Notes under the pieces: model-generated | What the model was told of the DNA's origin: nothing | What the model saw: the letters and a program-made list of their open reading frames with translations, nothing else | The model's database searches: none | Translations under genes and position numbers: made by a program | Assembly: GCA_963383645.1 (NCBI GenBank) | Contig: OY726557.1 | Location: 155,807,201-155,871,200, forward strand | Direction: 5' to 3' | Length of the DNA: 64,000 nucleotides | Source of the DNA: Muscardinus avellanarius | Taxonomy: Eukaryota; Chordata; Mammalia; Rodentia; Gliridae | Shown: piece by piece, positions 1,600-61,920 of the stretch | Layout of the letters: every line of letters starts with the position of its first letter | Numbering within the stretch: position 1 is the stretch's first letter

Positions 1600-4500
1600 T
1601 AGAAATGTAACATTTGTGCATCCCCTGAGGAATGGCTGGAGCCTTAGAGGTTGTGGTGACACCATATTGCTAACCAGGCCTTGCATGTTGACACTGCAGC
1701 CTCCAGAGATTCCCAGCAAAAAAGTCAATGACTAAATGAGAAGAACAAGCTGCAGCTCATAGAAATTATAAGTGGTCAGGACCTTGCTCTACACTTCAGA
1801 GATATTCTACTGCCTGGAACACTGGGCCTAGAAGGCCTTCTCCAGAGATTCCAAGCAGCAATCAACAACATAGTAAATAAACTCACAGGGACTAGCATAG
1901 TAAGCAAAACTTTCAAGATCTGGTGAAGGTGGGGCCGAAGTCTGCTGTTAGATATAGCAGAGAGCCCCCAGCGCCATTTAAGCAAAGTTCACAGCACCGT
2001 GGAAGGGTATCTGAAGATCTCTGAAGATCAGTAAGACCATCCAATCATAGTGACTAGGAAGAAGTCAGACAAAACCACTCCTATCTGTGGAGAACCTGGA
2101 CCCCTTACATATACACTGGGCTAGCCCCAGCTGCATTTGCCAACTTCATTGGCAGGAAGACACAGAGGATTAGGTTCTGTGGAAAGTGTGAGACCAGTGT
2201 TTACAATGGATCCAGATCTAGTGATACCTGCCATCTGTATAGACAATGAGAGACTCAGGGATAAACCTGTAGAGAACTCAGAGATGCTGGCACGAAGCAA
2301 GAAGGGCATCAGTGGCACTCAGCAACTGAAGAAACAGAAAAAAGACACCATGCCAGGATCCCAATCATTGAAGTAGACCAAAAAGTTTCTTGTCTTATTC
2401 ATATTTTCTCTCTTCTCTCTGTCCTTCTTTTCTTTTCTTTGACTTGTATTAAATCCTCTACATGTCACTAAACCTAAACACTCTACAGCAGATACTATAA
2501 TCCTTCTGAATATTCACTATCTCTAATATCTACTATATATTACCTTACAACACTCAAACTCTCATTCTACCCTATCATATCTGCTATTGTATCCTATTAT
2601 TGCATTTATGACTCCAGATCCTTCTTTCTCCCTCAACATTCATTATTGAATACAACACAATTTGCCCTTGATATACCAGCTGAAAGCTACAGAATGAAAG
2701 AAAACTATCAAAAGCAACTAAAATACAAATGTTACAAAACCTAAAATCATGAGAAGGAGGAACAAAAAGGAAGCAATGAGATCCCACAACCCCACAATAA
2801 GAGAACTCACCAACACAGAATTGCAGAGATTGCCAGGAGAATAAATCAGAATTTTAATAATAGAAATGATGCAGGATTTTAGCAAATAATTTAGAGAGAG
2901 CATAAAAGGAATAAAGGAGCAAGTAAACAAAGAATCTGACAGCCTGAACAGGCATCAGAGAGAAGCTTTGAAGAAAGTGAAGGATGCAATCATGGAAGTC
3001 AAGGCATCACTATAAACAGTAGACTAGACCACATGGAAAATAACATCTCACTCTTAGAAGATGATCATTCCAAAAATGAACATATAGCATATAATTTAGA
3101 AAAAAATCAATTTAACAGAAAAATTGGACATTGAAGAGATATGAGCCAATTTTATAAGAAATAACCTAAGAATAATAGGCATAAAAGAGGGAATAGAAAG
3201 TGAAACCAAAAAGATCAACAATCTTTTCAAATAAGTAATATCAGAAAAATTTTCCAAATATAAAAATAGGTCCATAGAAAGATACAGGAAATATAGGACC
3301 CCCTTTACATAAGATCAGGGAAAAGGTTCACTATACCACATAATAGTCAAACTGACTAATGTAGAGACCAAAGAGAGATTCTTAAAGGTGACAAAAGCAA
3401 AAGAACAAGTGACATTCAGAAGCAAATCAATTAGAGTCACTCCAGATGTCCCAAAACAAGTCAGAAAAGCCAAGAGGGCTTGGAGCCACAGATTACAAAT
3501 TTTGCAGCTCCAAATTTTCTACCCGGTAAAATTATCTCTCAAATTAAATGGGTAAATATAAATCTTCCATTATGAACAGAAACTGAAAGAATTTATGGCT
3601 TCCAGAGAAAATACACAAAGATATTAACTACAAAGAAGAAATAATTAATAAATACCAGAATCACCAAAACAATAATTTTCAGCAAATAACCAAACAAAGA
3701 AGAAAAAATACTATGTCAAACAGAAGTTAAAAACAAATTGTTAGGAATTTAAAATCATTTCTCAATAATCAAGCTGGATATAAATGACATCAACTTTCTA
3801 ATAAAAAGCATAAGGTGGCAAAATGTATTAAAATACAGCATCAATTTATTTGCTGCCTGGAAGAAACACACAAGTAAAGATAGTCACAAACTAAAAGTGA
3901 AGGGCTGAAGAAAGGTAATCCATGCCAGCAGAACTAGAAGATAAGCAGACTTAGCAATAAGATATCAGACATAGCAACAAGATATCAAACAAACTAGACT
4001 TCAAGCCAAAGCTAATTAGAAGAGACAAGGCAAGTAATTTTTTTTTTTACTGGTTAAACAGACAATTCAGCAAGAAAAAATAATGATAGTCAACATTTAT
4101 GCCACAAGCATTGATACAGCCACTTTCATAAAATAATTTTTGTGATATTAAGTCACACATAGATCCCAATACTATCATACTGGCAAACTTCAACACTTAT
4201 CTGATATTGTTAGACTGGTCTTATAGACAAAAGGTCAGTAAACATACCTCAGAAAAAAAAAAAGAATAAAATGAACCAAATTTACCTTTTGGACACATAC
4301 AGAATATTCCACCCAACTACAGCAGAGTTCACATTTTTCTCAGTTTCTCATGGAAACTTTTCCAAAATAGACCACATTCTGGGCCACAAAGTAGCAGTAG
4401 CCAATTAAAAAATGTGACATACTCCCTGGTATCTTTTTAGACCACAATAAAATAAAACTAAAAATGAACTATAAGAAGACCAAGAGTAACCACATAAAAA

Positions 4501-5165
4501 CATGGATAATGGAAATCACACTGCTGAACAACAAATGGGTCATAGAAAAAGTAAGGACGAAAATGAATAAGCTTCTAAAAACAAATGAAAATAGAATTAC
4601 AACATATTAAAACCTCTGGGACATCTTGAAGATAGTATTGAGAGGAAAATTCATAGCATTGAGTGCCCATATAAAAAGAAAAAAAAATCAATAACCTAAT
4701 GACATACCTCAAAGACTGAAAAACAGAAACAATCTAAACCCAAAGCCAGTATAAGACAGTAAATTATTAAAATCAAAGTAGAAATTAATGAAGTAGAGAA
4801 TACTAAGTGAGATAAGTCAGTAACAAAAAGTAAAATGTCAGATGTTCTCCTTAATATGCAGAATCTAGGGGGAAAATGGTTCATAGGAGAAACTCTATAA
4901 AAATGAGAAACCATAGATGATCAGATAAGGCAACCTAGCTAAAAGGTATGAGGGGTAGAAGAGAATAATTCCCTAATGTACATGATGTACATTCACAAAT
5001 ATATAAAAATTAATCATTAAGTCAAACATTAAGAAAGATGGAGTAAGAAATGAGGTGGGGAGCAGGGAAGGGATAAATGAGTGATGTGTGCATGTATGTC
5101 TCTACCATCTTGTAAACCATTAAGAGATATGACTTCAATGCATCAAAAATCTTTAAAAAATAAAA
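1600..5165 (+). mobile_element. Old L1, internally deleted, with 5'UTR, ORF1 remnant and partial ORF2
   Basis: A sense-strand L1. The part from about 1640 to 2690 is a 5'UTR-like region whose end (tattgaatacaacacaattt) matches the pre-ORF1 sequence of two other L1 copies here. From about 2695 to 3600 lies a decayed ORF1, and from about 3700 to 4806 a decayed ORF2 endonuclease region. At about 4806 the sequence jumps from early ORF2 (after the endonuclease) directly to the distal 3' end (agtgagataagtcagt), so the reverse transcriptase is absent. It ends in a 3'UTR and A-rich tail at about 5130-5165. Many stops and frameshifts are present and no protein is encoded. The 5' boundary is uncertain. 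Confidence 0.75.
2695..3600 (+). pseudogene. Decayed L1 ORF1
   Basis: Nucleotide similarity to the younger ORF1 at 60896-61784 is visible throughout, for example in the C-terminal block around 3380-3460 (a gacattcagaagcaaatcaa stretch matches the RGKTIRITPD-coding region of the younger copy). L1 ORF1 is a trimeric RNA-binding nucleic-acid chaperone. This copy has many in-frame stops and indels and cannot make it. Confidence 0.65.
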
Positions 5166-5168
5166 GTA

Positions 5169-5655
5169 TTTCAGTGTGTAGTGGCAAACAGATGTAATTA
5201 TATTTCTTGAAAGGCTGGGATAGGCAGACTCTCTGTTAGGATAAGCAGCCCAGTTATGCCAAAGATGGCGCCTCTCCGGCTTCTCTTCCGGATTGTGCTG
5301 GCTACCTCATAGCCAGCCAAAGGGGGCCACAGGATGCCCAACAACCAGTCCCCTGATAACACATTCACTGGGGTATGAACCTCCCAATCAGTAAATGCCT
5401 CGTACTTCATGCGATCTTCCGCTGTGAGCAGAAGCCCCCTCCTTTTCAAAAAATCCTCAGCTGCCTGAAATAAAAGGGAGCTGGGCTGTCTTAATAAAGC
5501 TTTTGCTTGCTTGCTTGCTTATCTCCGATGGCTGGCCTTGGGTTTTTTCTGCGCCAGACTTCCACTTTCACTCTCAGTAATAAAACCTTGTTTCAGAAAC
5601 AAAGAATTTGCTGAGGGTGTAGCTTGGAGGTGGAATGTCCCTGGATTTGATGCCT
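5169..5655 (+). repeat. Old SINE split by a solo LTR
   Basis: The left part (5169-5233) carries a diverged B1-like head (gtagtggcaaacagatgtaa). The right part (5571-5655) carries the remaining B1 tail (accttgtttcagaaacaaag) and an ID-like half (gtgtagcttggaggtggaat). Together they make one SINE interrupted by the LTR at 5234-5570, so the SINE is older than the LTR. Confidence 0.7.
5234..5570 (+). mobile_element. Solo LTR of an endogenous retrovirus-like element
   Basis: A 337-bp unit starts TGTTAG and ends TTTCA, with the direct repeat ctctc at 5229-5233 and 5571-5575 as a perfect 5-bp target duplication. It has AATAAA at 5469 and 5493, followed by a gctttt(gcttgctt) U5-like stretch, which fixes the orientation as plus. 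Near the 5' side are aaagatggcgcc (5261-5272, YY1-like) and cttccgga (ETS-like, about 5285). No internal viral genes flank it, so it is a recombined solo LTR. A 5-bp duplication fits ERVL or some ERV1 groups; I do not name the family. Confidence 0.8.
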
Positions 5656-5821
5656 ATTATAAAAAAAGGCCTTAATGTGAGATTCTAAATCAAACTATTT
5701 TCATAATTTGATATTAAAAACAAAATTTTATAAAGAAAACAAAGGCAATTTTTTCGAAAGAAGTTTCTATCATATGTAGATCAATGAAACATCATAGTTA
5801 CACTCAGTTAAATTAATTCTT

Positions 5822-6037
5822 TTTATTTTTGGTGGGGGTGGTACTGGGGGTAGAACCAGGGTCTTTCTACCTCCAGGCTATACTCGCAGACCTATTTTAT
5901 ATTTTATTTGGAAACAGGGTCTCACTTAGTTGCTGAAAGCCTCACTAAGTAGCTGAGGATGACTTCAAACCTGTGCAATCCTCCTGTCTCAGCCTCCCAA
6001 GCCTGGGGATTACAAGTGTGCGCCACCACACCCAGCT
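5822..6037 (-). repeat. B1-dID SINE with 14-nt target duplication
   Basis: Plus-strand order is T-rich tail, gtactgggggtagaaccagg (ID half complement), then the B1 half complement ending ccaccacacccagc. The perfect repeat ttaaattaattctt lies at 5808-5821 and 6038-6051, so both borders are certain. Confidence 0.92.
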
Positions 6038-6051
6038 TTAAATTAATTCTT

Positions 6052-7986
6052 AAATAAACTTGAAATACATTTGTGCATTAGCATGAATTTCCTTTTGATC
6101 ATTATAAATATTTCCAGGCTGCTTGCTCAAACAGGTTTCTTAAGGTCCTGTTTGTCTACTTGGTTGATGTAGTTTATTACATGTTTTTTGAGGTATTACA
6201 CACATTATAATTCAAAGTTCTCGAGGTGAAGTCTATTTTTTATATAATAAGACCATCTGTTTGTTCTATCCTGCATTTCTTTACAATATTGCTTGTCTCT
6301 TTCAATAAAGGATTATAGCAGATTTCAAATCATGAGCACTACATTTTTAATAACACCCAAATTTATTTGCATCTCTTCATTATTTGCTACAGAATCCTTC
6401 ATTTTTTCTGGGTTTTTCAGAAGTTATTTTTGCTTGAACTAAATTTTAGTTGTGTCTTGGCAAGCATATTCAAAACAAATTTTTTCTCAACCTTCTGTTT
6501 CCTTATTACATATTAAATATCTTGTCTACAATACCTTAAAATCACATTTGCACATATTAAGAAGGTCCTAAGGATATTTTATTCCCTGACAGAAAAATAG
6601 TTGGTACAAGAGCAATTGAAGAGGAGGTTTTGAATTAAAATAAATTTAAATAAAATCAAATAGATGAACAATACCTGAAAGGACAACAGGAATAAATGTA
6701 TTTGTTCCTTTGTTTTCTTCTTCTCTTGCCACCTTCTTCTGTAACTCTGAGTTACAGAAAATATAGTTTTATTTTTTCACTAGATCATGTTTCATATTCT
6801 CTCAATATGTACCTTTAATTGGCCTAAAACTCTTTTAATTCAGAAAAAATACCAATATACTTGACTATTATAAGAAAAATACTTTTTAAAAGGATCTTCA
6901 TTTATATATACAATAACATAATCAGTCATTTTATGGTTTGAAGACCACAAAATAATTGGAAAAAACAGGAAGAGACTAATTATAGACTTGTATGTTTTCT
7001 ATGAAAAGAAAGCCATTGTACCTTTCTTCACCTTGTCTCAACAGTACTCTTATTACTTAAACTAATAAAATTGCTGATTCCATGGAGTTCTTATTGTCTG
7101 TGAAAGGAATGTAACTAGAGGCTTTAATGGAGCCTAATTTTGAAAAGCCCTTGTATTAAAAAATGGAAGTAGTCTCTTTAGATTGCTCACTCCACATTAG
7201 TAAACATCATGTGTCTCTATGGCCAGAGAACTGCAGAGAGCTACATAGCACCTTAAGACCATTCAGTCATTTTAGTGAAACCTGTACATTTCCTAGAATG
7301 TGCTTTAATATGAATGGTCTGTTTTGGTTTTGTCCTATGAATACCTCCTATGAAAATCATGTTAGTCTTTTATTTATCCAGAAAGATTAACATCTATCTG
7401 CGAGTTGAAACTTTGCTTGACCCAAAGAAACACATTCCCCAAAACACTCTTCTTATATCGGTGATTAAGTTCTCTTAGTAAAAAGATTAGGCCCATGAAC
7501 AACTAACCTTATATTTCAGTAGGAAAAAATAAAATATATTTTAGATAAATATTAGGTTTGGATGGTTGTGCAAATTTTACCTGACATATGAATTAATATC
7601 TTTATACTCCTAATAAAATATGGAATAAGAAATGAATTGCCATCAGAGACTCTTAAGCAGGAAGTTATTTTTCCTTACAGAAGTGACTAAAATGTTCTTT
7701 CTGCCACACATAGTAACACTATGCTTAATTAGAAAACAAACAACTCAGTTAGCAAAATACCCTTTTCTTCATAGTATCACCAAATCAGTAAATCAATGAT
7801 AATATAAATAATTCTCACTGAATCACTTTTCATTATAAAGCCCTACACTAGCCCTATTAGTCTATGGAAAGCTTGTAGGATAAGTTTCATTTAGGATACT
7901 GAAAAGTACATTAGGGTATCAGTAGCAAGATGTTAACAGCATTATATATAGATAAAGAAAAAATGTAACATGGTATGATGTTTAAA
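6052..7986. other. AT-rich sequence without recognised features
   Basis: No coding region, RNA gene or repeat was recognised on either strand. An open frame of 75 codons at 7163-7390 has no recognisable domain and is probably chance. Confidence 0.5.
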
Positions 7987-7998
7987 ACTTCAGGCTCT

Positions 7999-8190
7999 GC
8001 CAGGCGTGGTGGTGTATGATTGTAATCCCTGCACTTGGGAGGCGGAGACAGGAGAATCTCACAGGTTCAAAGCCAGATGCACTGGCTTAAGAGACCCTGT
8101 TTCCAAATTCAAAAAAAAAAAGAAGTATAAAATAGTTCTGGAAGTGTAGCCCAGAGGTAGAAGGGCTTCCAGGAATCCCAGTACCACCAA

Positions 8191-8233
<43 letters not shown>

Positions 8234-8235
8234 AT
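7999..8235 (+). repeat. B1-dID SINE with (TAAA)n tail and 12-nt target duplication
   Basis: Head gccaggcgtggtggtgtatg, then gaagggcttccaggaatccc and cagtaccacc, then about 11 copies of TAAA as the tail. The target duplication acttcaggctct is perfect at 7987-7998 and 8236-8247. This is the shorter SINE subfamily with the actggcttaagagaccc junction. Confidence 0.93.
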
Positions 8236-8247
8236 ACTTCAGGCTCT

Positions 8248-9309
8248 AAAATCAGTCCACAGGCTGACCACTTTTCTGAGTTAGAATTCCAATTATTATA
8301 TGTATAAAAAGTATGCTAATGGAATTACAATATTAATAAAATTAAAACATTAATAAAATTTATAACATTGCTTGTCAGGCATTGCTCTACTTTGTGAATA
8401 TTATATACAATTCACAAACCCATACTTTGTTCATGTTTTCTTAACCTGTTATACCTTCCCACTCTCCTTTACACATATATCCTAACATCTAAACTTCAGT
8501 GCAGAGACATGCTGTAACCTTTGGAATTTTGCAAATCTGCATGCTGTGAGACCTTCTTCTACCAGTATATCTAGGCATAATTAATTCATACCTCTAATCT
8601 GTTACCATAATGAAACTTCTATAATCCTATATTTCATTTACTCATATGCCTATATACTTAAAAGAATTATAGGTTCCCAATTTATTCCATATATAGGGTT
8701 ATGTCCTACTTTTTTTATTCAGTGTACCCTCAAAACCACTTATTTCATAAGGATAGGAGTACATGGCAGTTACTTCCATATAGAAAATACATTAGGAAAA
8801 ATGGTCATGGAACTGCATAATTTGGTTCAAAATAGCTCAAAGTTAAAAAGAAAAAAAAATAGACACCTTGTTTAGCAAATGCCCAGGAGAGACCAATACT
8901 GACAAGAGGAACATCAGCAACAGGAAGAATCAAGTAATGGTTTTCAGATAGGATACAAATGGTTTTTCATTAAAATAATTAACCACTTAGCAAATGCATT
9001 CTTGCAAATTCCCTACAAGTAAAAATATAAAAACTTGAGAACCAAGGCAAAAAGTAGGACTCCAAGATTTATGAACAAAAAGAGATCATCTAGTGTCTAA
9101 CAATAAGAGAAGAATATCAGAACATACAATATGAAAAGACTCAAGTACTTAAGAAAATCATTTCTTTGTTCTAATACCAGTGTTTTAGTCTTATCAAATA
9201 ATGTATCACTTATTTATAGTTCCAACTGAAACAATAAACTATTTACCATAAAATAAATAGAAAATTTTATATATTATTATTCAGTGTTGAGAAAAAATTA
9301 TTTATTTAT
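8248..9309. other. AT-rich sequence without recognised features
   Basis: I see no gene or clear repeat in this stretch. Confidence 0.5.
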
Positions 9310-12300
9310 TCTTTTTCAATTTTTAAATTTTTTATTGGTGTATTTTAGTCATACATCTTAATGAGATAAAAGACTTGTGTGGAAAAGTGGGAACCCTAAA
9401 ACACCATTGGTGGGATTGCAAATTAGTGCAACCACTTTGGAAAAAAGTATGGAGGATCCACAGAAGAATGGTAATGAACTTCCCATTTGATATAGCAATA
9501 CCACTTCTGGGTATCTACCCAAAATAAAGGAAAACAAATGACCAAATAATGTATGCATATTTATGGTCATAGCTGCACAATTCACCATTGCCAAACCATG
9601 AAAATAGCCGAGATGTCGAACAACATAGGAATGAATTACAAAACTATGAGATATGTACACAATGGAATTTTACTCAGCCACAAAGAAAAACACAATTACA
9701 GCATTTACAGAGAAATTATGGAACTGGAGGACATTATGCTAAATGAGATTAGTCAGCCACAAAAAATAAAAAATTGAGTGCTTTCCCTAATAAGTGAAAG
9801 CTAGGGAGAAATGGATAGCAGGAAGCACAATAGATGAAGAAGGAGATTCTATAGAGAAGAAAATAAGGTGATCTAACTTAGGGGATGTGAGGGGGGAAGA
9901 GAGCAACTCTCTAAAGTACCTGATGTACTTAAACAAACATATCAAACATATCAGTCACTAAGCCAAGCATGGGTAAGAGGGATATGGAGGGAATGGAGTT
10001 TGGATCAGGTAAGGGCTAATTAAATGATGTGTGTATGTATATTTCTACAACTCTTTTGTCCCATTAAGATATATGACTACAATGCACCAACTTAAAAAAT
10101 AAATAAGTAAGTTACTATTAGAAAAAAGCTTAAAATAAAAAATAAAATAAAATAATGGCTGAATAGCACTTTGGCTATAAAAAATAAATAAATCAAAGAC
10201 TGTGTAGACATACAGGCACACATCACCCAATTAGCCCCTACCCAATCCCCACCCAATTTCCCCCACATCACTCCTTTCCATGCTTAGCTAGGTGATTGAC
10301 TTTTATATGTTTGTTTAAGTACATTATGTGCTTTAGAGAGTTGCCGTCTTTCCCTCTCTCATCCCCTGAGTTAGGTCACCTTATTTGCTCCTCTATAGGA
10401 TCTCCTTCATCTAGTGTTTATCCTGTTACTCATTTCTTCCTAGCATTCACATATTAGAGAAAGCATCTGATTTATTATTTTTTGTGACTGACCAATCTCA
10501 CTTAGCATAATGTCCTCCAGTTCCATCAATTTCCATGTAAATGATATAATTGTGTTTTTTTATGGCTGAGTAAAATTCCATTGTGTACATATCCCATAAT
10601 TTTGTAATTCATTCATCTGCCAACTGACATCATGATTGGTTTCATAGTTTGACAATGGTCAATTGTGCAGCTATGAACATAAATACACATGCATTAGTTT
10701 GGTAGTTTCCTTTCCTTTCTTTTGGATAGATATCCAGAATTGGTATTGCTGGATCAAATTGTAAATTTCTTTACATTCTTCTGAAGATCTTCCATACTGT
10801 TTTCCAAAGTGGTTGCACTAATTTTCAATCCCAACAGTAATATAGTAGAGTTCCCACTTCTTCCTATCCTCACCAGCATTTGTTGTTGTTTGTGTTTTGA
10901 ATGATTGCCATTCTAGTTGGAGTTAAGTGAAATCTCAGGTAGTTTCGATTTGCACTTCTCAGATTGCCAATAATGTTGAGCATTTTTTTATGTATTTATT
11001 GGCCATTTTAATTTCTTCTTTCATGAAGTATCTTGTTAATTCACTTGTGCATTTGTTGATTGGATTATATGTTTTCTTAGTGCTGAGTTTCTTTAGTTAT
11101 CTGTATATTCTAGATATTACTCCTCTATCAGAGGAATAGTTGGCAAAAATCTTCTCCCATTCTGTTGCCTCTTGATTGAGGTTCTTGACAGTTCCTTTTG
11201 CTGTACTGAAGCTCTTCAGTTTCATGCAATCCCACATGTTAATTTGCCTTATAGTTTTTTGTGCCTTTTGTGTCTTGTTGAGAAAGTTTTTATCTGTGCC
11301 TATGTGTTGCAGTGTTGGACCTATTCAAGGAGCCTCAAGCCCTCTGGTCTAATTTCCAAGTCTTTGATCCATCATAAATTGACTCTTGTGCAGGGTGAGA
11401 AAGACAAACTTATTTCCATTTTTCTGCATATTGTTAACCAGTTTTGCCAACACCATTTGTTGAACAGCTTATATTTTATTCCAGTGTACAATTTTGGCCC
11501 CTTTGTAAAAAATAAATTGGCTATAATCAATTGTTCCTGAGTCTTGTATTCTACTCTATTGGTCTATATATCTGTATTTGTGCCACTACTATGCTGTTTT
11601 TATTACAATAGCTTTCTAGTATAGTTTAAAGTCAGGTATTGTGATTCTTCCTGCATGGTTTCTGTAGCTGAGAACTACTTTGGCTATTCTGGATTTTCTG
11701 TTGTTCCAAATAAACTTAAGGACTTATTTTTCTATATCTGTGAGGAATGATCTTGGTAACTTAATGGGCATTGTGTTGAATCTGTAGATCACTTCTGGAT
11801 GTCCATTTTGATATTTATTCTGACTGTCCATGAACATGGAAGATCTTTCCATCTTCTAAGATTTTATTTTATTTTTCTTTTAAAAATTTTATAATTTTCT
11901 TTGTAAAGGTCCTTTACCTCTTTGGTTAAGTTTATTCCTAAGTATTTTTTGTTTAAAATCTTGAGTGGAAGTGTTTTCTGAATTTCTGTTTCAGTGGATT
12001 TATGGTTGGTGTACAGAAAAGCTTTTGATTTTTTAAGATTGATTCTGTATCCAGACACTTTGCAGAATTTGTTGATCATTTCTATAAGCCTTTTGGTTGA
12101 GTTTGTTGGGTCTTCTAAGTATAGTATCATGTCATCTGCAAAAAGTGAAAGTTTGAGTTCTTCTTTTCCTATTTGTACTCCTTTGATTTCTTTTTCTTGC
12201 CTTATTGCTTTGGCTAGAGTCTCAAGTACTATATTGAAGAGAATTGGTGATAATGGACACCCTTCTCTTTTTCCTGTTTTTACTAAGACCCTCTTTCAAA
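9310..12300 (-). mobile_element. Antisense L1 (3'UTR to reverse transcriptase), split by a sense L1
   Basis: The 3' end lies at 9310-9380 (plus strand ttttattggtgtattttagt) and resumes at about 10195 with the adjacent L1 segment (gcacacatcacccaattagc). It then runs through the ORF2 C-terminal region into the reverse transcriptase. The FADD active-site codons are still readable on the minus strand at 12131-12142. A minus-strand open frame of 88 codons (11864-12130) is the piece just after FADD. The element is 5'-truncated at about 12300 and carries frameshifts. Confidence 0.85.
9381..10194 (+). mobile_element. Sense L1 3' fragment nested in antisense L1, possible 3' transduction
   Basis: L1 3' sequence from the distal ORF2/3'UTR boundary (ccattggtgggattgcaaat) to atgcaccaacttaaaaaata. 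It is flanked by aaagacttgtgt (9369-9380) and aaagactgtgt (10195-10205), an imperfect target duplication inside the host L1. Between the first A-rich tail (about 10090-10110) and the right duplication lie about 80 nt of extra sequence ending in a second A-rich run, as a 3' transduction would leave. Confidence 0.7.
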
Positions 12301-16472: not shown

Positions 16473-16720
16473 ATTTCTGTTTTACAGCAGTATTTTGGAG
16501 CATGGATCTCCAAAAGAGCTTAGTTGTGATGATCTATACATGCTACATCTTCACTGTCTACTACAGCAACCCCTGCCTCATGAGCCCCTGGAAAATAGCT
16601 GCTGAGACTGAGGAACTAAAATGTTGACTTTAATTAGTCTATATATAATTTCAAACACTCATGTTTGGCTAGTGGCATTTATTTTATTTATTTATTTATT
16701 TTTATTAATTTATTTTTTAA

Positions 16721-17045
16721 ATTGGTGCATTGTAGTCATATATCAATCACATTGGAGTACAAGACTTGAGAGGATATACAAGCACACATCATCCAATTAG
16801 CCCTCCTCCAACCCCCATCCCATTCCCTCCCCCTTCCTCCATCCTACGCTTCTTTGGTGATTTACTTTGATACATTTGTTTATGTACCTCCTGCGTTTTG
16901 AAGAGGCTCCGTCCTCCAGTATTACATACCCTCTGATTGGTCACATTAGTTGCTTCACTATAGGGCCCTTTCTATAGCTCAACCTCTTCCTGTTGCCCTT
17001 TTCCTCCTAGTTATTGCTGATTAAGAGAAGCGTCTGACTTATATT
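16721..17045 (-). repeat. L1-derived 3' module of composite copy A
   Basis: Minus-strand L1 3'UTR ending in the complement of attggtgcattgtagtcata. It differs from ordinary L1 copies here by shared diagnostic bases with copy B, such as ccctctgattggt and tatagggccctttct. The piece up to about 17085 (gatatttctctgtgcatgct) is a linker also found in copy B. Confidence 0.8.
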
Positions 17046-17084
17046 TTCTGCGATATTTCTCTGTGCATGCTGCGTTGCAAGTAC

Positions 17085-19485
17085 CGATCCCACTCTTGAT
17101 GGTCCCAGTAGTGGCCTGGCTACTCAGTGGACTGATCCAGACCTCGCTAGCTCAAGCAGCGGCCTTGCCTCATGGGAGGCCCCAGTTCTGGTCTCGCTGG
17201 CCCCTGCACCAGTCTAACCCCTAAGCTGGCTTTGGTCCCGGCCTTGGAGGCTGCAGGAGTGAACTTGCCTCACGCCAGTCTCCGATGCTGGCCATTGGCC
17301 CCTTCACCGGCCTAACCCCTTGGCAGGATTCCCATCCCGGCCTCGGAGGCCCCAGCACCAGCCTAGCTTCATGGCAGGCTCCAATGCCAGCCTCGTTGGC
17401 CCCTGCACCGGCCTAGGAGGCCCCAGCACTGGCCATGTCTCACGGCAGACTCCAATACTGGCCTCGCCTCACGGCAGGCTCCGATGCTGGCTTCGCTGGC
17501 CCCAGCACCGGCCTAACCCCTCGGCAGGCTCTTATCCCAGCCTTGGAGGTCACAGTACCGGCCTTGCCTCACGGCAGGCTCCGATCCCGGCCTCGGAGGC
17601 CTCAGCATTGGCCTTGCCTCACAGCAAGCTTCAATGCCGGCTTCACTGGTCCCAGCTCCGGGCTCACCCCTCGGCAGGCTCCAATCCCGGCCTCGGAGGC
17701 CCCAGTACCAGCCTTGCCTCATGGCAGGCTCTGGTGCTGGCCTCGCTGGCCCCAGCACCGGCCTAACCCCTCAGCAGGCTCCGATCCTGGCCTCGGAGGC
17801 CCCAGCACCGGCCATGCCTCACGGCAGGCTCCGATGCCGGCCTCGCTGGCCCCAGAACCGGCCTAACCCCTCAGCAGGCTCTTATCCTGGCCTCGGAGGC
17901 CCAGTATTGGCCTTGCCTCACGGCAGGCACCAATGCCAGCCTCGCTGGCCCCAGCACCGGCCTAACCCCTTGGCAGGCTCTTATCCTGGCCTCAGAGGCC
18001 CCAGTACCGGCCTTGCCTCAAGGCAGGCTCCAATGCCGGCCACGCTGGCCCCAGCACCGGCCTAACCCCTCGACAGGCTCTTATCCCGGCCTTGGAGGCC
18101 CCAGCACTGGTCATGTCTCACAGCAGGCTCCAATGCCGGCCTCGCTGGCCCCAGCATCAGCCTAACCCCTTGGCAGGCTCTTATCCTGGCCTCAGACGCC
18201 CCAGTACCGGCCTTGCCTCACGGCAGGCACCAATGCTGGCCTCGCTGGCCCCAGCACCAGCCTAACCTCACGGCAGGCTCCGATGCCGGCCTCGCTGGCC
18301 CCAGAACCGGCCTAACCCCTCAGCAGGCTCTTATCCTGGCCTCGGAGGCCCCAGTACCGGCCTTGCCTTATGGCAGGCTTCGATGCCGGCCTCGCTGGCC
18401 CCAGCAACGGCCTAACCCCTCGGCCGGCTCCGATCCTGGCCTCGGAGGCCCCAGCACCGGCCATGCCTCACGGCAGGCTCCGATGCCAGCCTCGCTGGCC
18501 CCAGAACCGGCCTAACCCCTCAGCAGGCTCTTATCCTGACCTCGGAGGCCCCAGCACTGGCTATGCCTCATGGCAGGCTGCGATGCCGGCTTCACTGGCT
18601 CCATCACCAGCCTAACCCCTCGGCAGGCTCTTATCCTGACCGCGGAGGCCCCAGCATCGGCTCTGCCTCACGGCAGGCTCCGATGCCGGCCTCGCTAGCC
18701 CCAGCACCGGCTTAACACCTCAGCAGGCTCTTATCCTGGCCTCGGAGGCCCCAGTACCGGCCTTGCCTCAAGGCAGGCTCCGATGCCGGCCTCGCTGGCC
18801 CCAACACCAGCCTAACCCCTCGGAAGGCTCCGATCCCGGCCTTGGAGGCCCCAGCACTGGTCATGCCTCATGGCAGGCTCCGATGCTGGCCTCGCTGGCC
18901 CCAGCACCGGCCTAACCCTTCAGCAGGCTCTTAACCTGGCCTCAGAGGCCCCAGTACCGGCCTTGCCTCAAGGTAGGCTCTGATCCCGGCCTAGGAGGCC
19001 CCAGTACCAGCCTTGCCTCACGGCATGCTCCGATGCCAGCCTCGCTGGCCCCAGCACCGGCCTAACCCCTCGGCAAGCTCCGATCCTGGCCTCGGAGGCC
19101 CCAGCACCAGCCATGCCTCACAGCAGGCTCCGATGCCGGCCTTGCTGGCCCCAGCACCGGCCTAACCCCTCGGCAGGCTCTTATCCTGACCTCGGAGGCC
19201 CCAGTACTGGCCTTGCCTCACGGCAGGCTCCGATGCCGGCCTCGCTAGCCCCAGTACCGGCCTAACCCTCAGCAGGTTCCAGACCCAACCTCGGAGGCCC
19301 CAGCACAAGCCTTGCCTCATGGCAGGCTCCAATGCCGGCCTCACTGGCCCCAGCATCGGTCTAACCCCTCGGCAGGTTCCAATCCCAGCCACGGAGGCCT
19401 CAGTAGTGGCCTTGCCTCACAGCAAGCTCCGATGTCGGCCACTGGCCCCGGCGCCCGCCTAACCCCTCAGCAGGTTCCGATCACT
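17085..19485. repeat. GC-rich minisatellite: 50-bp monomers in 100-bp higher-order units
   Basis: The landmark gcctaacccc recurs at 17761, 17861, 17960, 18060, 18160, 18260, 18310, 18410, 18510, 18610, 18710, 18810, 18910, 19060, 19160 and 19260, so the dominant period is 100 bp with some 50- or 150-bp steps. Each 100-bp unit holds two diverged 50-bp monomers, one with cctcggaggcccca, the other with cctcgctggcccca. There are about 48 monomers. CpG-rich and about two thirds G+C by eye. Long stop-free frames occur on both strands simply because the units are GC-rich and nearly a whole number of codons when doubled; these are not genes. Confidence 0.95.
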
Positions 19486-19589
19486 GTCTCTGTGGTTATT
19501 ATTTCAAAGGTTCCAGGTGTAATGTATCAGATCTCTACCTCCCCTTAGTATTGGCCACTGGCATTGCCACTGCCTCCACCATTTCAAAT

Positions 19590-19955
19590 CCTTCCCACGA
19601 CCCGGGCCCCAGCTGGCGTGCTCCTCGCGACCCCTGCCCGGAACCCAGAGTACTGAGCCCGGTTTCTCCAGGGGTCTGGCGTGTTATGTGCATTTTGGCC
19701 CGGGGCCCAGAGTCCCGCGATTCGGCCCCATCTGGCGTGCCCCGCGCGCGACCCCCACCCAGAACCCAGCTACTTACTGGGCCCGGTTTCTCCAGGGGTC
19801 TGGTGTGCTACGTGCAGTTCGGCGGGGCCCAGAGTCCCGCGACCCGGCCCCAGGCTGGCATGCCCCGCTCGCGAAACCTGCCCAGAACCCAGCGTCTTAC
19901 TGGGCCCGGTTTCTCCAGGGGTCTGGTGTGCTACACGCAGTTTGGCCAGGGGCCC
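19590..19955 (-). repeat. Tandem CpG-rich units of about 120 bp at the 5' end of copy A
   Basis: Three units, marked by tttctccaggggtctgg at about 19664, 19789 and 19910, and by cccagagtcccgcga. Very CpG-rich, so it could act as a promoter or be methylated. Not seen in copy B. Confidence 0.85.
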
Positions 19956-19970
19956 GCTAGTGGCTTTTAT

Positions 19971-26788: not shown

Positions 26789-28245
26789 TTTTTTACATTT
26801 ACAAACATTTATTTTTATTTTATTTTATTGGTGCATTGTATTCATACATCATAGTGGGATAAAAAAAAAAAAAAACTCGTGGCCGGGCATGGTGGCGCAT
26901 GCTTGTAATCCCCGCGCTTGGGAGGCTGAGACAGGAGGATCGCATGGGTTTGAAGCCAGCCTCAGCTGCTCAGTGAGGCTCTCAGCAACTTACTGAGACC
27001 CTGTTTCAAAATAAATATAAAAAAGTCTGGGAGTATAGCCCAGAGGTAGAAAACCTCTGGGTTCCACCCCCAGTACCACCAAAAAAAAACAAACAAAAAA
27101 AAACTGGTGTAGACATACATGCACACATCACCCAGTCAGCCCCCTTTCACTTCCCACCCCCTTCCTTCCCTAACCCTGCCTCCCATGCTTGGCTTAATGA
27201 CTGATAACAATACGTTTGTCTAAATACATCATGTGCCTTAGAGAGTTTTTTTCCCACCTCACCTCCCTTTAGTTAGATTGCCTTATTTGCTCTTCTATAG
27301 GTTCTCCTTTTTCACCCGGAGCTCCTCCTATGACCCATTTCACTTTGGCTTTCACATATTAGTGAAAGCATCTGATTTCTTACTTTTTGTGACTGACTAA
27401 TCTCTCTTAGCATAATGTCCTCCAGTTACATCCATTTCCTTGTAAATGCTGTGATTGTCTATTTTTATGGCTGAGTAAAACTCCATTGTGTACATATCCC
27501 ACAGTTTTGTAATCAGTTCATCCATTGATGGATGCCTTGGTTGGCTCCATAGTTTGGCAATGGTGAATTGCACAGCTATAAATGTAGATACGCATGGATT
27601 AGTTTGATAGTTTGGTTTGCTTTCTTTTGGATAGATACCCAGAAGTGGTATTGCTGGGAAATTAGAACAGAGACCTTGAGGCTCCTTGAAGAAGGCATAG
27701 GTCCAACACTACAACACACTGGCACAGATACTGACTTTCTCAACAAGACCTTAAAGGCACAAAAAACTAAAAAGGTGAATAAATATGTGGGACTGCATGA
27801 AACTAAAGAGCTTCTGTTCAGCAAAGGAAACTGACAAGATCCTCAACCAAGAGCCAACAGAATGGGAAAAGATTTTTGTCACCTTTTCTTCAGACAGAGG
27901 ACTAATATCTAGAATATACAGAGAGCTCAAGAAACTCAACACCAAAAAAAAAAATACTCCAATTAAAAAATGGCCAAGTGAACTTAATAAACACTTCACA
28001 AAAGAAGAAATTCAAATGTCCAATTAATGCATGAAAAAAATGTTCAACATCATTGGTTATCAGAGAGATGCAAATCAAAACTACTCTGAGATTCCACATA
28101 ACTCCAACTAGAATGGCAATCATTCAGAACACAAACAACAAATGCTGGTGAGGATGTGGAGAAGAGGGAACTCTAAAACATTGTTGGTGGGATTGCAAAC
28201 TAGTGCAACCACTTTGGAAAACAGTATGGAGGATCCTTAGAAAAA
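26789..28245 (-). mobile_element. 5'-inverted L1 with perfect 20-nt target duplication
   Basis: The left part (26789-27658, minus a nested SINE) is antisense L1 3' end. The right part (27659-28245) is sense L1 ORF2 whose last bases (gaggatccttagaaaaatg) lie just upstream of the left part in L1 order. The perfect repeat tgaattcccacttaaattct lies at 26769-26788 and 28246-28265. In L1 orientation the 5' junction reads TTTT/AGAA, close to the L1 endonuclease preference TT/AAAA. Decayed ORF2 C-terminal frames at 27568-28027 are fragments. Confidence 0.95.
26880..27092 (+). repeat. B1-dID SINE nested in L1
   Basis: gccgggcatggtggcgcatg head, gggttccacccccagtacca tail, inserted in the A-rich/actcgtg segment of the antisense L1 (aaaactcgtg left, aaaactggtg right). 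Central segment intermediate between the two SINE subfamilies. Confidence 0.92.
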
Positions 28246-52570: not shown

Positions 52571-52597
52571 TCTGGATGGTTATTTTTAAATATATTT

Positions 52598-52915
52598 TTA
52601 TTGGTGCATTGTAGTCAAACATCACAATGAAATACAGGACTTGTGAAGATATCCAAGCACACATCATCCAATTAGCCTTTATCGAATCCCCATACCAGTC
52701 CCTCCCCTTCCTTCAATCCCATGTTTGATTTAGTGATTAACTTTGATATATTTGTTTACATAACTCATGTGTTTTAAAGAGATTCCATCATCTTCCATCC
52801 CATTCCCTCTGATTGGTAACCTTAATTGCTCCTCCATAGGGCCCTTTCTTCAACTAGATTTGCTCCTATTACCCATTTCTTCCTAGTTTTTGCATATTAG
52901 GGAAAGCATCTGAGG
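52598..52915 (-). repeat. L1-derived 3' module of composite copy B
   Basis: ttattggtgcattgtagtca at the terminus. It shares with copy A the variants ccctctgattggt and tagggccctttct, absent from ordinary L1 copies in the window, so the two composites descend from one source. Confidence 0.8.
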
Positions 52916-52984
52916 TGTTTTTTTTTTTTTTTTTGTGATATTTCTCTGTGTGTGCTGCATTGCAAATTCTGATCCCACTCTTGA

Positions 52985-53275
52985 AGGCCCCGGCACTGGC
53001 CTGTTCACCTGGCAGACTCTGATCTTGGCCTCGCTGGCTCCAGTACTTTCCTTGCCTCATGGCAGGCCCCAATCCTGGCCTCACTGGCCCTAGCACCGGC
53101 CTCACCCTTTGGCAGGCTCCGATCTCGGCCTCCTAGGCCCCAGCACTGACCTTGCCTCATGGCATGCTCCAATCCTGGCCTTGCTGGCCCAGGCATCAGT
53201 CTAGCCAGCTGGCAGGCTCCTATCCTGGCCTCAGAGGCCCCGGCACCGGCCTTGCTATGCATCAAGCTCTGGTCT
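52985..53275. repeat. Short array of 50-bp GC-rich monomers
   Basis: About six diverged monomers related to the array in copy A (catggcaggccccaatcctg; cactggccctagcaccggcc). Preceded by the shared linker gatatttctctgtgtgtgct. Confidence 0.85.
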
Positions 53276-53612: not shown

Positions 53613-53639
53613 CTTTGATTTTTTTTTTTATATCAGAGA

Positions 53640-53875
53640 GCAGTACATGTCTTTTGCAAAAACTGGGACCCTAAATACCTAGTGACAATGAATTTTGTCT
53701 TCCCTCCAAAGGTAGAGGTCCACAGCTTCACTTCGGAGAGCAGGCTCTGCTCCATATTCATCCTGGCCTCCTGCTCTGTGCAGAGGAGCACGGTGGCCAT
53801 GAGGGCTGATGTCTCCCAGAACACGCAGCGTGGCAGCCCGTTCCAGCTATGCGGGGCTCCCTCTAAAACCCCTCA
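53640..53875 (-). repeat. Module M, inner copy
   Basis: About 230 bp similar to 54885-55125: caatgaattttgtcttccct against caatgaattttatctcccct, then gtgcagaggagcacggtggc against gcacagaggagcatggaggc. Function unknown. Minus-strand frames of 63 and 97 codons in the two copies align in part but carry differing ends. Confidence 0.75.
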
Positions 53876-54740
53876 AACCCTTTTACCACTTAGCATGTTG
53901 TCCAGAATTCTCGAGGATGTGTGGCAGGAGCAGTTTTATTTTGGGGAGATTTCCTCAAAAGTTCAAGGTGGACTGGACTGGATCTGTCTGCCCCTCCAAA
54001 TTCTGGTCACCACAACTGCCGCTGCAACCACTGCCATACTGGTTTTCTCCTGAACACCTTTCCTACACAGTTTGTTTTCCAGAATTCCCAAGCATGTGTG
54101 GAAGTAGCAGTATGCCTTTGAAGATATTTCTTTAAAATTATTAGGTGAATTGGATTGAATCTCTACCTCTACCAAATACTGACCACTGCTGCCTCTGCCA
54201 CAGACAGCCATCTTGGTGCTCCTCTGAGCACCTTATTCACAGAGCATGTTGTCCCAAATTCCCAAGCATGTGCAATGGTAGCATTCTACCTTTGGGGAGA
54301 GTTCTTTAAAAGATCAAGGTGGATTGAATCAGATCTCTGCCTCTCCTGAATACTGGCCGCTGCCATTGCCACTGTCTCTACCATCTCAATTCTCTCCCAA
54401 ACACATTTCCCACACTGCATGTTGTCCAGAATTCCTGAACATGCATGGCAGTAGCATTCTACCTTTGGGGCAATTTCTTCAGAAGATCAGGGTGGGTTGG
54501 ATAAGATCTCTGCCTCTCCCAAATACTAGCCTCCGCAGCCACTGCTGCTGCTGCCACTGCCTTCCTCCTGGTTCTTGGCTGAGCTCCTTCCTTACATGAT
54601 ATGATGTCCAGAATTCTTAAGCATGTGCCACAGGAGCAGCACCCTTTGCAGGGATTTTTTTTTCCAAAAGTTCCAGATGAATTGTATAGGATTTGTCTGC
54701 ATCTCCTGAATGCTGGCTACCATCGCCACCATCTTGGCCT
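53876..54740 (-). repeat. Array of about 175-bp units in composite copy B
   Basis: Landmark tgtccagaattc or a variant at about 53898, 54073, 54249, 54421 and 54606, followed in each unit by gcatgtg, a tttcttt-aaaa-gttcaaggtgga block and a ctgccactgccgct-type block. Five units, moderately diverged. Confidence 0.85.
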
Positions 54741-54882
54741 ATAAATATATATATTTACTAATTATATATATATTTACTATATATAATATATATAATATTA
54801 ATATATATAATATAAATATATATTTACTAATTATATATATTATATATAATATAAACATACATATATATATATATATATATTT
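54740..54882. repeat. TA-rich microsatellite
   Basis: Tandem ATATATTTACTA and TA units, between the 175-bp array and the outer module M. Confidence 0.95.
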
Positions 54883-54884
54883 AA

Positions 54885-55125
54885 TAAGAGAAGAGTATGT
54901 GCTTTTTGAAGATGTTGTGGGATTGAGCACTCAGCAGCAATGAATTTTATCTCCCCTCCAAGTGTGGAGGTACACAGCCTCAGCACATAGAGCAGGATCT
55001 GCTGTTCCAAGCACAACAAGAACCCCAGCGCAGCACAGAGGAGCATGGAGGCCAGGCACGCTGAGTTCCCTGAGACACATGGCTCAGCTTTCTGCCCGGC
55101 ACTTCTGGGCTCCCTCCACCATGTC
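54885..55125 (-). repeat. Module M, outer copy
   Basis: See the inner copy. The longest minus-strand frame (54840-55133, 97 codons) ends in TA-repeat codons and has no recognisable domain, so I do not call it a gene. Confidence 0.75.
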
Positions 55126-58749: not shown

Positions 58750-60285
58750 TTGTTTTTCAAAATGGCGACTGAGGGACACAGCACTTCTCAGTAGCTGAAG
58801 CAAATAAAGTTTAAATACTTAGAAAGCAGTGTCTTAATCAACAAAATAAATACATACCAGGAACCAAAACACATCCAAGTACTTCGGCGGAACCCTGAAC
58901 TTGAAGAAGAAGAACAAAGATCGGACACGGGACCTGCTGCAGATACAATCGGAACGCTGATCGGAACGCCGATCGGCGGGCTGCCTTTTCAGCTGCCCAA
59001 GGAACTGCCTGCCCGATATTACCGTGGCAAGATAATCCGGGACTAAAAACGGACTTAGGACCGCATCTTAAGCAGCGAGCAGCACCACATCAGAATTCTG
59101 TGTGCCCACCAGCGACCGGATCACAACTGCATAGAGACTCCCATGGATTCCTGTACCAAGTCAGGTACCTGAGGGCACCTGGTAAGTTGGGGTCCTAGCG
59201 TGTGCGCAGCCTCAACCCCCCAGCACGGGCCCAAGCCTCAGAACCGAGCACTCTCCTTGCGCACCTTGCTTGCGCTACAGTCCCCTGCTAGTAGTCATTG
59301 CCGGTACCACTGCCACCCCTAAATTGGAGCCTGCTTGTGTGTCTAACCCTTGACACCTTGCCAGAGCCTGCCTTCCAGGCTGCGAAAGCCCTGTGTGACC
59401 CGGAAATCTCCATGGGGCACCCCCAGCTTCTACGTCCCGCGGGAGGCAGAAACCATTGCTGGACACCGTGCACTGGACCCTTGAGCACCTACCCTGCACC
59501 CCTGGCCCACCGCTGGGTGTTCCCACCCTCCTGGTAGCCAGATGCTTAGTTCTAAGCGAGAACACACTCAATATACCTTGGAAGAGCATAGCAGCAGCAA
59601 GAGACAGCTGCATCCACTCTCACTTGGGTCCAGTATTAGCAGCGCATCCAGCCTGCACTCTCGGAATAGGCAGAGCTCAGGCAGTAAGTGTGGGCATACA
59701 GGAACCAGTATCCATTTGCCCAGGGTACATCTTGAGACCACATCAGCTAGCCCAGCTGGAATTTCCAGAGACACAAGAAAATCCATCGGGCCACAATATC
59801 TGCACAGGACCTCAGGGGGAGGTTCCAATTATACTTTGGTCATTCTCCACCCCTGCTGTAGGGAAGCACAGGCTGGAGGCTAGGGTGGTGAGTGCAGTGG
59901 TGCTGACCACAGGTTAGAATTTCGCAGAACCTGTGAATTGTACAGAATCAAATAACAGTGAAACCAGACATCCGGACACATAAACCTAAAGCAGCTAAAG
60001 GAGAGAAAGGTGTCCAAACACCCAGAGTGACCTAAGAAGATAAAAATAGAGTACAAAGAAAACTAAGAGACATTGGATGGTATTCTGAAAGCTACCAAAG
60101 CAATCAGATATGCACATATTATATGGAACTGACCCCATATGCATAAATAAGGAGGACTGTTTGTTTTACTTTTAATGTGGATGTTTTGTTTTATTTTGCT
60201 TTTACAGTGCTTTTGTTTTGGTATGGTTATTACTGTTTTATTTTTTTTTTCTTTTAACCCACACTTCTTTTACTCTAACTTGTTG

Positions 60286-60341
<56 letters not shown>

Positions 60342-60895
60342 TGGATAGTTTGCCTTATTTTTTTATTTCACACAGCTGCTAGTTCCTTTTATTTTATTCT
60401 TGTTCTTTTTTCCTCTTTCTTCCTCTTTACTTCCTTTTTTTTTCATTCTCCTCCTTTGATTGGTTTTCCTTCCTTTTTCTTGGATTACATAATAGTCTTG
60501 GTATCTTGTGTGGATTCTTTTTTTTTATGTCTGTCTGCTCCTTCCATCATCCCTATTTACAAACCTTCCCACACTAACCTACATACTTTTCTCCCCCAAA
60601 ACTTTTCCCCGTAATATACCTCCTGGTTTAATACTCAAAGTATTTCTTATATCCATAATTACTCTACTAACGACAAGAGTCCTAGTAGTTAACTCTCTCT
60701 CATTCCTAGCAAGTTATTACCTTACCATACTTAAAGTCTTTCGCAACCTAACATATCCTCTACCTAATCCGACTCCTTTACCAATCACCCCAGCTCCTCA
60801 CACATCACCCGCCCTCAACACTGGAAAGGCTCTGCTGACTAGCCAATACCCCTAAACTCCTAATATTAAGATTTGACTAAGCACATTACTCATGA
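58750..60895 (+). promoter_or_regulatory. L1 5'UTR and internal promoter
   Basis: The start resembles other L1 5' ends here (gacacagcac downstream of the YY1-type site). The CpG-rich first 800 bp would be the sense promoter in a typical L1. Open frames at 59275-59917 on both strands are products of high GC. A T-rich region (60170-60530) and a C/T-rich region (60540-60840) precede ORF1. Confidence 0.8.
60292..60335. repeat. (TA)n microsatellite in the L1 5'UTR
   Basis: Pure TA dinucleotides. Confidence 0.95.
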
Positions 60896-61784
60896 ATGAT
60901 GGGTAGAAATCAGAAAAACAGGACAGAGAACGCTATAAATATGAGAACCAGGAATTATGAAGAGACAGCAGAAATCACGAATACTGACCTACTAGAAATG
61001 CAAGCAGGGGAGTTCAGAATCTTGATGTTCAATATGATGAAAGGATTTAAAACAAGTATAGAGGAGGTTAAAGGTGAACTAGAAACACTAAAAAAGAATC
61101 AGAAAGAGGTCTGGAATGAAATGAAAGAGGCAATAAGTGAAATGAAGACAGCAATAGAAAGAAATTCTGGAAGATTAGATGAAATGGAAAACAGAATATC
61201 AATATTAGAAGACAGTACATCCCAAACCGAAAACACAGTCAGCGACATAGAGAAATCTGTACAGCAACAAAACCTAAGCATCCAGCAATTATGGGATATG
61301 ATGAAGCACCCTAATTTACGGATAATAGGCATTGAGGAAGGGATAGAGGTACAGACCAAGGGCATCTGTAATATCTTCAAGGAAATAATCTCAGAGAATT
61401 ACCCAAATATGGAAAGAGATTGAATCTTCAAGTCCAGGAGGCATACAGAACTCGACTGAGACAGGACCAAAGAAAACCACTCCACACCACATAATAACCA
61501 AATTGACCAGCATAGAGGCCAAGGAAGGAATCTTAAAAGCAGTGAGAACAAAAGGACAGGTGACATATAGAGGCAAAACAATAAGAATCACCCCAGACTA
61601 TACAACCCAGGTCAGGAATGCTAGGAGAGACTGGTACGACGTGATTCAGACCCTGGAAGAAAATAACTTCCAACCAAGGCCCATCTATCCAGCAAAAGTA
61701 CTATTCATGATCAATGGGGAATTCAAAGTCTTTCAGGATGAACAGAATCTCAAAAAATTCATGAATTCAAAGCCAACACTATAG
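60896..61784 (+). pseudogene. L1 ORF1 (RNA-binding chaperone), broken by two frameshifts
   Basis: ORF1p forms trimers through a coiled coil and binds L1 RNA through an RRM and a C-terminal domain. The first frame (60896-61423) gives the N-terminus, a coiled coil from about residue 35 to 125 (heptads around EVKGELETLKKNQKEVWNE) and the RRM start (NLRIIGIEEG). At 61420 the frame shifts; a short middle stretch is read in a second frame to about 61480, then the third frame carries TSIEAKEGILKAVRTKGQV and RGKTIRITPD to a stop at 61782-61784. The start is the first ATG in frame; a second ATG follows at once. Total coding length is near that of mammalian ORF1. Confidence 0.9.
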
Positions 61785-61920
61785 AAAATTCCTAAAGAAA
61801 TAAACCATAAGGAAGAAAAATAGAAGCAGACTTCACAATCAGAGAAGAGAGGAAGCTAATAAGTGGGCCATTTAAGTAAAGAAGAAAGATCACACCACCC
61901 AAGAGTAGACAGAACACAAA

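Follow-up and report, generated by a model that had tools for sequence, protein, structure and literature searches.

A composite retrotransposon without long open reading frames (ORFs) was found in the hazel dormouse, Muscardinus avellanarius, in a stretch of 64,000 nucleotides that was analysed as a whole (contig OY726557.1, positions 155,807,201 to 155,871,200, of assembly GCA_963383645.1; below, the window). The copy in question, copy A, lies on the minus strand between duplicated flanks at window positions 16668-16682 and 19956-19970. It belongs to a dispersed composite family of this genome with thousands of copies, many of them truncated. We consider it likely, with a probability of about 0.9, that copy A is one of thousands of composites lacking a long ORF that are mobilised in trans by L1 elements through target-primed reverse transcription, and that the family would be an independently evolved rodent counterpart of SVA and LAVA.

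In sense order, copy A consists of CpG-rich units, a remnant of a region of 175-bp units, a GC-rich variable number tandem repeat (VNTR), a linker, an A-rich joint, an L1-type 3' end and an A tail. The initial annotation had listed these modules apart from the A-rich joint, and the sequence together with a tandem-repeat scan places all that it listed where it had put them. The three CpG-rich units of 120-125 bp, which are predicted promoter units (19593-19955, by the tandem-repeat scan; GC content 0.69, CpG observed/expected ratio 0.70), are followed by a 113-bp remnant of the 175-bp-unit region, representing its last part only (19480-19592, with a match up to 19597). This remnant is 94.7-97.3% identical to the matching segment in 11/20 related loci fetched from the genome. 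Then come about 44 GC-rich monomers of 50 bp (17267-19479; the tandem-repeat scan assigns 43.5 copies to 17267-19440) and a linker of degenerate monomers and unique sequence (17061-17266), present whole or 5'-truncated in 20/20 fetched relatives. The A-rich joint between the linker and the L1 end (17040-17060) is specific to the composites and is likely a poly(A) remnant. It is followed by the 3' end of an old L1 lineage, by alignment the last ORF2 codons and the 3' untranslated region (UTR) (16721-~17039), and by an (AAAT)n-like A-rich tail (16683-16720), whose A-rich start is nearly identical in the 21 copies compared. All these features are on the minus strand.

Copy A lacks a stretch of 357-377 bp that is retained between the CpG-rich units and the 175-bp-unit region in all ten fetched relatives having both modules. 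The match to the 175-bp segment stops at 19597 and the CpG-rich units start at 19593, and thus the joint falls on a 5-bp overlap (19593-19597, minus strand, TGGGA in the sense orientation). The last CpG-rich unit resembles the units of loci L033-L048 and then jumps into the 175-bp remnant at this overlap. Since the stretch is missing and the joint lies on a short overlap, copy A is a variant of the element's longer (unspliced) form, described below, with an internal deletion. Splicing was considered as the origin of this deletion and ruled out, as the joint does not fit the GT-AG rule.

The size of the family was estimated by counting joint patterns on both strands of one genome, with reversed patterns as controls. 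The counts cover 2,497,143,478 bases in 104 contigs; small scaffolds are probably outside (the published assembly is reported to have 2,497,520,702 bases in 212 scaffolds, PMC11190645), and the mismatch limits make the numbers lower bounds for old copies. The joint of the linker with the L1 end was found 2,551+2,516 = 5,067 times (at most 2 mismatches in 35 nt), that of the 175-bp region with the VNTR 1,445+1,395 = 2,840 times (at most 3 in 41 nt), and the spliced-type joint, leading from the CpG-rich unit to the 175-bp region, 1,177+1,150 = 2,327 times (at most 3 in 36 nt). The exit of the longer, unspliced form was found 170+150 = 320 times. Each reversed control yielded 0+0. Judged by these numbers, roughly one in two of the copies counted at the 3' joint seems to extend into the CpG-rich units. 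Other copies with the same modules joined, on whose existence the initial annotation had staked its proposal, therefore number thousands genome-wide.

With the 365-bp 3' part as the query, the best 40 of 1,218 candidate places were scored; all are at least 98% identical, and copy A is among them. Twenty of these relatives, chosen as the best matches to copy A, were fetched together with roughly 10 kb of sequence 5' of the match. The linker and the L1-type end are present in 20/20 of them, the VNTR in 18/20, the 175-bp region in 11/20 and the CpG-rich units in 10/20; L010 and L020 start within the linker, and L026 runs into N. A separate search with the CpG-rich unit gave 74 matches in the best 40 of 3,573 candidate places. 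The full layout consists of about 1-7 CpG-rich 125-bp units, the 175-bp-unit region, about 14-114 monomers of 50 bp, the linker, the old L1 3' end and the A tail. Zero-mismatch joints on contig C1 (100 + 60 places, up to 85.8 Mb) formed 36 pairs with 35 distinct distances, from 889 to 5,920 nt with a median of about 2,430; therefore, the 50-bp array is a true VNTR. The family copies are non-coding: in the 13 copies analysed the longest sense ORF beginning with ATG has 50-100 amino acids (aa), in each case fewer than the mean obtained by shuffling that copy. An open frame of 98 aa in the unique segment of L031 has no Pfam match (L032 has a similar frame). The window itself contains an old 5'-truncated relative, copy B (52580-53255, minus strand), with about five monomers, the linker, an A18 joint and the L1 end; in an alignment of 687 columns its identity with copy A is 74%.

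Both ends could be placed in 22 copies (19/20 of those fetched, copy A, L031 and L032), for which the best duplication in the flanks was scored, G/C matches being given a higher weight, against a null of 462 mismatched flank pairs. The score exceeds the 95% line in 15/22 copies and the 99% line in 11/22. By eye, target site duplications are clear in 14/22, and each clear copy has a different one. The duplication of copy A, proposed earlier from this copy only, is identical at 14/15 positions between 16668-16682, at the 3' end of the element, and 19956-19970, at its 5' end (neither is assigned a strand), and it becomes convincing because 14/22 copies of the family have clear duplications. An A-rich 3' tail is present in 21/21 copies inspected and also in L031 and L032. 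The elements range from 507 bp (L020) to 4,332 bp (L025), as their start points and array lengths differ.

The cut sites resemble those of the L1 endonuclease, e.g. ATTT/TAAAAG in L017, TCTT/TAAAAC in L025, TTTT/AAAATA in L014 and AGAT/AAAAAC in L028. Not counting a leading shared T, AAAA directly follows the cut in 9 of 16 copies (the 14 clear ones, L015 and L021), as judged by eye. The 5' junction of copy A, earlier given as AT/AAAA, is read here as TGAT/ATAAAA in the element sense. Cut sites in the family are often A-rich and of the L1 type; copy A itself is outside the nine.

Joined flanks of 16 copies were compared with the window and the fetched loci, and three copies have paralogous empty sites. 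L025 and L012 each sit inside an older copy of the family, and once the young element and one copy of the 14-bp duplication are taken out, their flanks align continuously with L1-type ends of other family copies (45 and 41 matches, the best at 94.4% and 93.1%; some places are counted twice among the loci). L032 is inserted into an older L1, whose unbroken counterpart lies in the window at 27977-28202 (75.7% over 230 columns). The joined flanks of L009 (80%) and L015 (76%) match interspersed repeats, and those of L031 do so weakly (69%). The nested structure can be seen in L025 (reversed) at 3768-9907, where a young composite lies within an older composite of the same family, with the L1-type end split and a 14-bp duplication.

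A number of observations weigh against this picture of insertion. A first, unweighted score (+1/-3, 171 mismatched pairs) put only 5/22 copies above the 95% line, because A-rich tails match everywhere, and the weighted score and its null were chosen after this result. L016 exceeds the 95% line solely through a displaced 7-mer and has no convincing duplication; the duplications of L015 and L021 are exact but consist of A/T only and are below the 95% line; and no convincing duplication was found by the weighted score in L011, L013, L022, L023 and L024. Taken alone, the duplication of copy A is moderately strong, its score being reached by about 1.1% of the 462 mismatched pairs. Among the 16 joined flanks, no paralogous empty site was found for L010, L014, L017, L018, L019, L020, L027 and copy A, and the flanks of L021 and L028 matched only themselves. 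On the other side stand dispersed copies with the same joints, target site duplications, L1-like cuts, varied 5' ends and paralogous empty sites. These support the earlier proposal that the minisatellite is not a local expansion and has moved inside an L1-mobilised element.

The copies fall into two forms that differ between the CpG-rich units and the 175-bp region. Twelve of the 13 loci having this region show the joint CCCA/GAACAG (in L023 minus one base), and the stretches of L049, L050 and L052 end with it as well. The thirteenth locus, L030, keeps an intervening stretch that starts with GTAAGAC, ends with AAAAAG and is pyrimidine-rich before the end. Here the CpG-rich units exit into a short unique stretch ending CTTCTCTTATT, which is followed by an A run and then by the 175-bp region; this arrangement recurs in the older copy nested in L025. 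Exact removal from GT to AG would convert the L030 form into the CCCA/GAACAG form, and thus the joint of the dominant subfamily equals what splicing would leave. The unspliced exit is also seen in L033-L048 (16/20 loci of one search). These had been considered as a candidate different family, since their stretches end in other sequence; this was rejected, as L030, which covers the place of L033 with longer flanking sequence, reveals it as the unspliced branch of the composite.

It is possible, but rather doubtful, that the dominant subfamily arose by ordinary DNA deletion or a template jump and not by RNA splicing. Copy A demonstrates that short-overlap deletions happen in this family. However, the removed stretch extends exactly from GTAAGAC to AAAAAG and has a pyrimidine-rich stretch before its end. 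Two points count against splicing: the spliced-type copies share one ancestor and thus represent one event only, and by a rough estimate a chance deletion would fit GT-AG in about 1 of 100 cases.

The joint before the L1 end is A-rich as well, more so in four older copies, and is A18 in copy B. The A-rich internal joints are likely what remains of the poly(A) ends of pieces that were formerly separate. Against this, the internal A runs could be later expansions.

Intact L1s exist in the dormouse genome. When the endonuclease domain of an L1 from the window was used in a protein search, 135 matches were scored, more than 40 of which keep an open frame of 1,279 aa. The composite 3' part had no match to the 3' ends of intact L1s at an expect value (E) of 0.001 in 4/4 cases. 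The 5' sides of two intact L1s, between which the identity is 99.5% over 3,240 bp, share nothing with the composite modules (best E = 0.16). Since the intact L1s examined share neither end with the composites, and the latter have no long ORF, any mobilisation would be in trans. An unlikely alternative is that the element is served by a separate living L1 lineage with the same 3' end, in which case the tail would be recognised as a cognate end and would not act as a generic A tail. L1s of this 3'-end lineage do exist in the window, and its youngest members were outside the survey, which counts against our reading. However, the window L1s are older, and their 3' ends are only ~66-73% identical to the composite end of copy A, whereas all 21 best matches examined (the 20 fetched and copy A, of 40 scored) are composites.

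Mouse L1s have monomeric 5' UTRs, and the dormouse element resembles L1s of the mouse type in having tandem CpG-rich 5' units and copies that start within these units. Therefore one could suppose that the composite is an internally deleted L1, with the CpG-rich units as its 5' UTR monomers, the tail as its own 3' UTR and the VNTR grown at the deletion joint. The composite 3' end does derive from an L1 lineage. We regard this explanation as very improbable: the element has neither ORF1 nor ORF2, monomers of this kind are absent from both intact-L1 5' sides, and none of the four intact 3' ends matches. In the same way, the CpG-rich units were considered as an L1 5' UTR and rejected, as both unit-rich loci fetched for this test proved to be full composites and not L1s. 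Least probable, to the point of being negligible, is a satellite or local minisatellite spread by DNA-level duplication, with the copy A duplication, only moderately significant alone, being due to chance, since it is opposed by 5,067 dispersed joints on both strands, a distinct duplication at each clear copy, the A tails and the interrupted older repeats.

The starts of the copies within the CpG-rich units were compared in 33 copies, of which L025 was omitted, as its first match belongs to the nested older copy. Eight of the remaining 32 start in one 5-nt window of the unit, six of them at the A of CCAGACC (p = 0.0019 in a simulation scanning all windows). CCAGACC fits the initiator consensus, and the clustering is suggestive of a transcript start there. 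On the other hand, the test was post hoc, with a hand-entered unit and L025 left out, and 20/32 starts are ends of homology only.

With L1-driven mobilisation in trans as the preferred explanation, the following life cycle can be proposed. Firstly, RNA polymerase II would start transcription in the CpG-rich 125-bp units, and the transcript would be polyadenylated by signals in the L1-derived end. Secondly, the transcript would be taken up by ORF1p/ORF2p of a living L1 and reverse-transcribed, often incompletely, at a nicked TT/AAAA-like site. As for the origin of the element, separate polyadenylated pieces may have fused, leaving A-rich remnants between the modules. Later one RNA may have been spliced from a GTAAGA donor in the CpG-rich unit to the AG after the first A-rich remnant, founding the dominant subfamily. 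Finally, copy A would come from the unspliced branch, and a deletion at a 5-bp overlap would have removed its middle part.

Like SVA, the dormouse element is non-coding, a few kb long and has a central GC-rich VNTR; SVA monomers are given as 30-50 bp (PMC4432496), compared to 50 bp here. Both have L1 insertion hallmarks and arrays of variable length. Splicing is reported to have shaped SVA subfamilies, with first exons of genes spliced to SVA (PMC6139936), and the SVA copy numbers given, ~2,700 (PMC4982230) and ~6,000 (PMC13174262), are of the same order. The differences concern both ends. The 5' part of the dormouse element is composed of tandem 125-bp units and the 175-bp-unit region, its 3' end comes from an L1, whereas that of SVA comes from an endogenous retrovirus, and the host is a dormouse. 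A CT-hexamer/Alu-like 5' region was not seen, as 33 copies start in the CpG-rich 125-bp units (no direct comparison with Alu was made), and no family reached the threshold in an Rfam scan of the window. Since there is no hexamer/Alu-like 5' region, we do not class the element as SVA.

LAVA of gibbons is similar in that a VNTR is joined to a 3' part holding L1 sequence, and it is described as L1-mobilised in trans (PMC4432496). However, LAVA has a hexamer/Alu-like 5' region and a piece of Alu in its 3' part, neither of which was seen in the dormouse element. SVA2, PVA and FVA likewise combine a VNTR with exchangeable modules, but belong to the primate lineage and are reported to share VNTR ancestry (PMC4432496). 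The dormouse element also differs from short interspersed elements, as the 13 copies reaching the CpG-rich units are 2.0-4.3 kb long, compared to less than about 0.5 kb, a distinction by length, RNA polymerase III boxes not having been searched. And while it resembles mouse-type L1s in its 5' units, the intact dormouse L1s examined have no such units.

According to PMC4432496, VNTR composites are confined to hominoid primates. Among the entries listed by searches of the open-licence literature there was no VNTR composite from a dormouse or from any other organism outside the primates, and the main text of an L1-chimera catalogue of 2026 does not contain dormouse, Muscardinus or Gliridae (PMC13174262). 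Common descent with the primate VNTR seems unlikely given the host lineage. Of the earlier proposal of an independent rodent analogue, the analogy is supported by the design and the dormouse host; independence is inferred. With more reserve than for mobilisation in trans, we lean towards the view that the SVA design was invented a second time, fully independently and in a non-primate. The dormouse element, probably still mobile, would then have L1-5'-UTR-like promoter units, a GC-rich VNTR and a borrowed L1 tail, and would have been assembled stepwise from polyadenylated pieces and later reshaped into its most successful form by splicing of its own RNA. If true, a GC-rich front, a GC-rich VNTR and an A tail would be a repeatable way to hitch on L1, and the family would be a natural replicate for the unsolved role of the VNTR in retrotransposition. 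A large young rodent family built from other parts would provide an independent test of which parts matter. Thousands of GC-rich dormouse arrays that look like minisatellites would be insertions with predicted promoters and possible effects on nearby genes.

With respect to age, 11/21 copies match the 3'-end consensus exactly, and the divergence of copy A from it is 1.37%. This sample was chosen by similarity to copy A, so that youth cannot be extended genome-wide. Older copies at 88-90% exist in L025, L030 and L012, and copy B is at 74%; therefore, the family has a long history.

Two observations concern the dormouse L1s. An L1 at about 59000-63000 of the window has a 175-aa ORF1 fragment and a 290-aa frame with the ORF2 endonuclease; its protein is 90-96% identical to other L1 matches in the genome, many with a full open ORF2. 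In L058 (~822-2930) the 5' UTR of an intact L1 is about 2.1 kb long, begins near CAAAATGGCGACTGAGG and, by a repeat scan, has no tandem monomers, in contrast to mouse L1.

Modules related to those of the composite occur elsewhere. The window holds, at 53620-54723 (minus strand), about four units of 175 bp that start with the YY1-like GCCAAGATGGTGGCGATGG and are ~70% related to the composite 175-bp region; after them come a different 3' module and an A run. This element looks like a separate, older modular retroposon sharing parts with the composite. A 3' module ending like CTTCTCTTATTAAA was found in the window at 54900-55080 and 53620-53880, in L030 at ~1881-2010 and in L025 (reversed) at ~4020-4240. 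The CTTCTCTTATTAAA-type module follows 175-bp units in the window and CpG-rich units in L030. Such combinations suggest that several L1-dependent families may have exchanged modules. An AT-rich imperfect palindromic tandem repeat with a 54-bp period lies at positions 54740-54887 of the window, where it borders the 175-bp-unit element on the 5' side.

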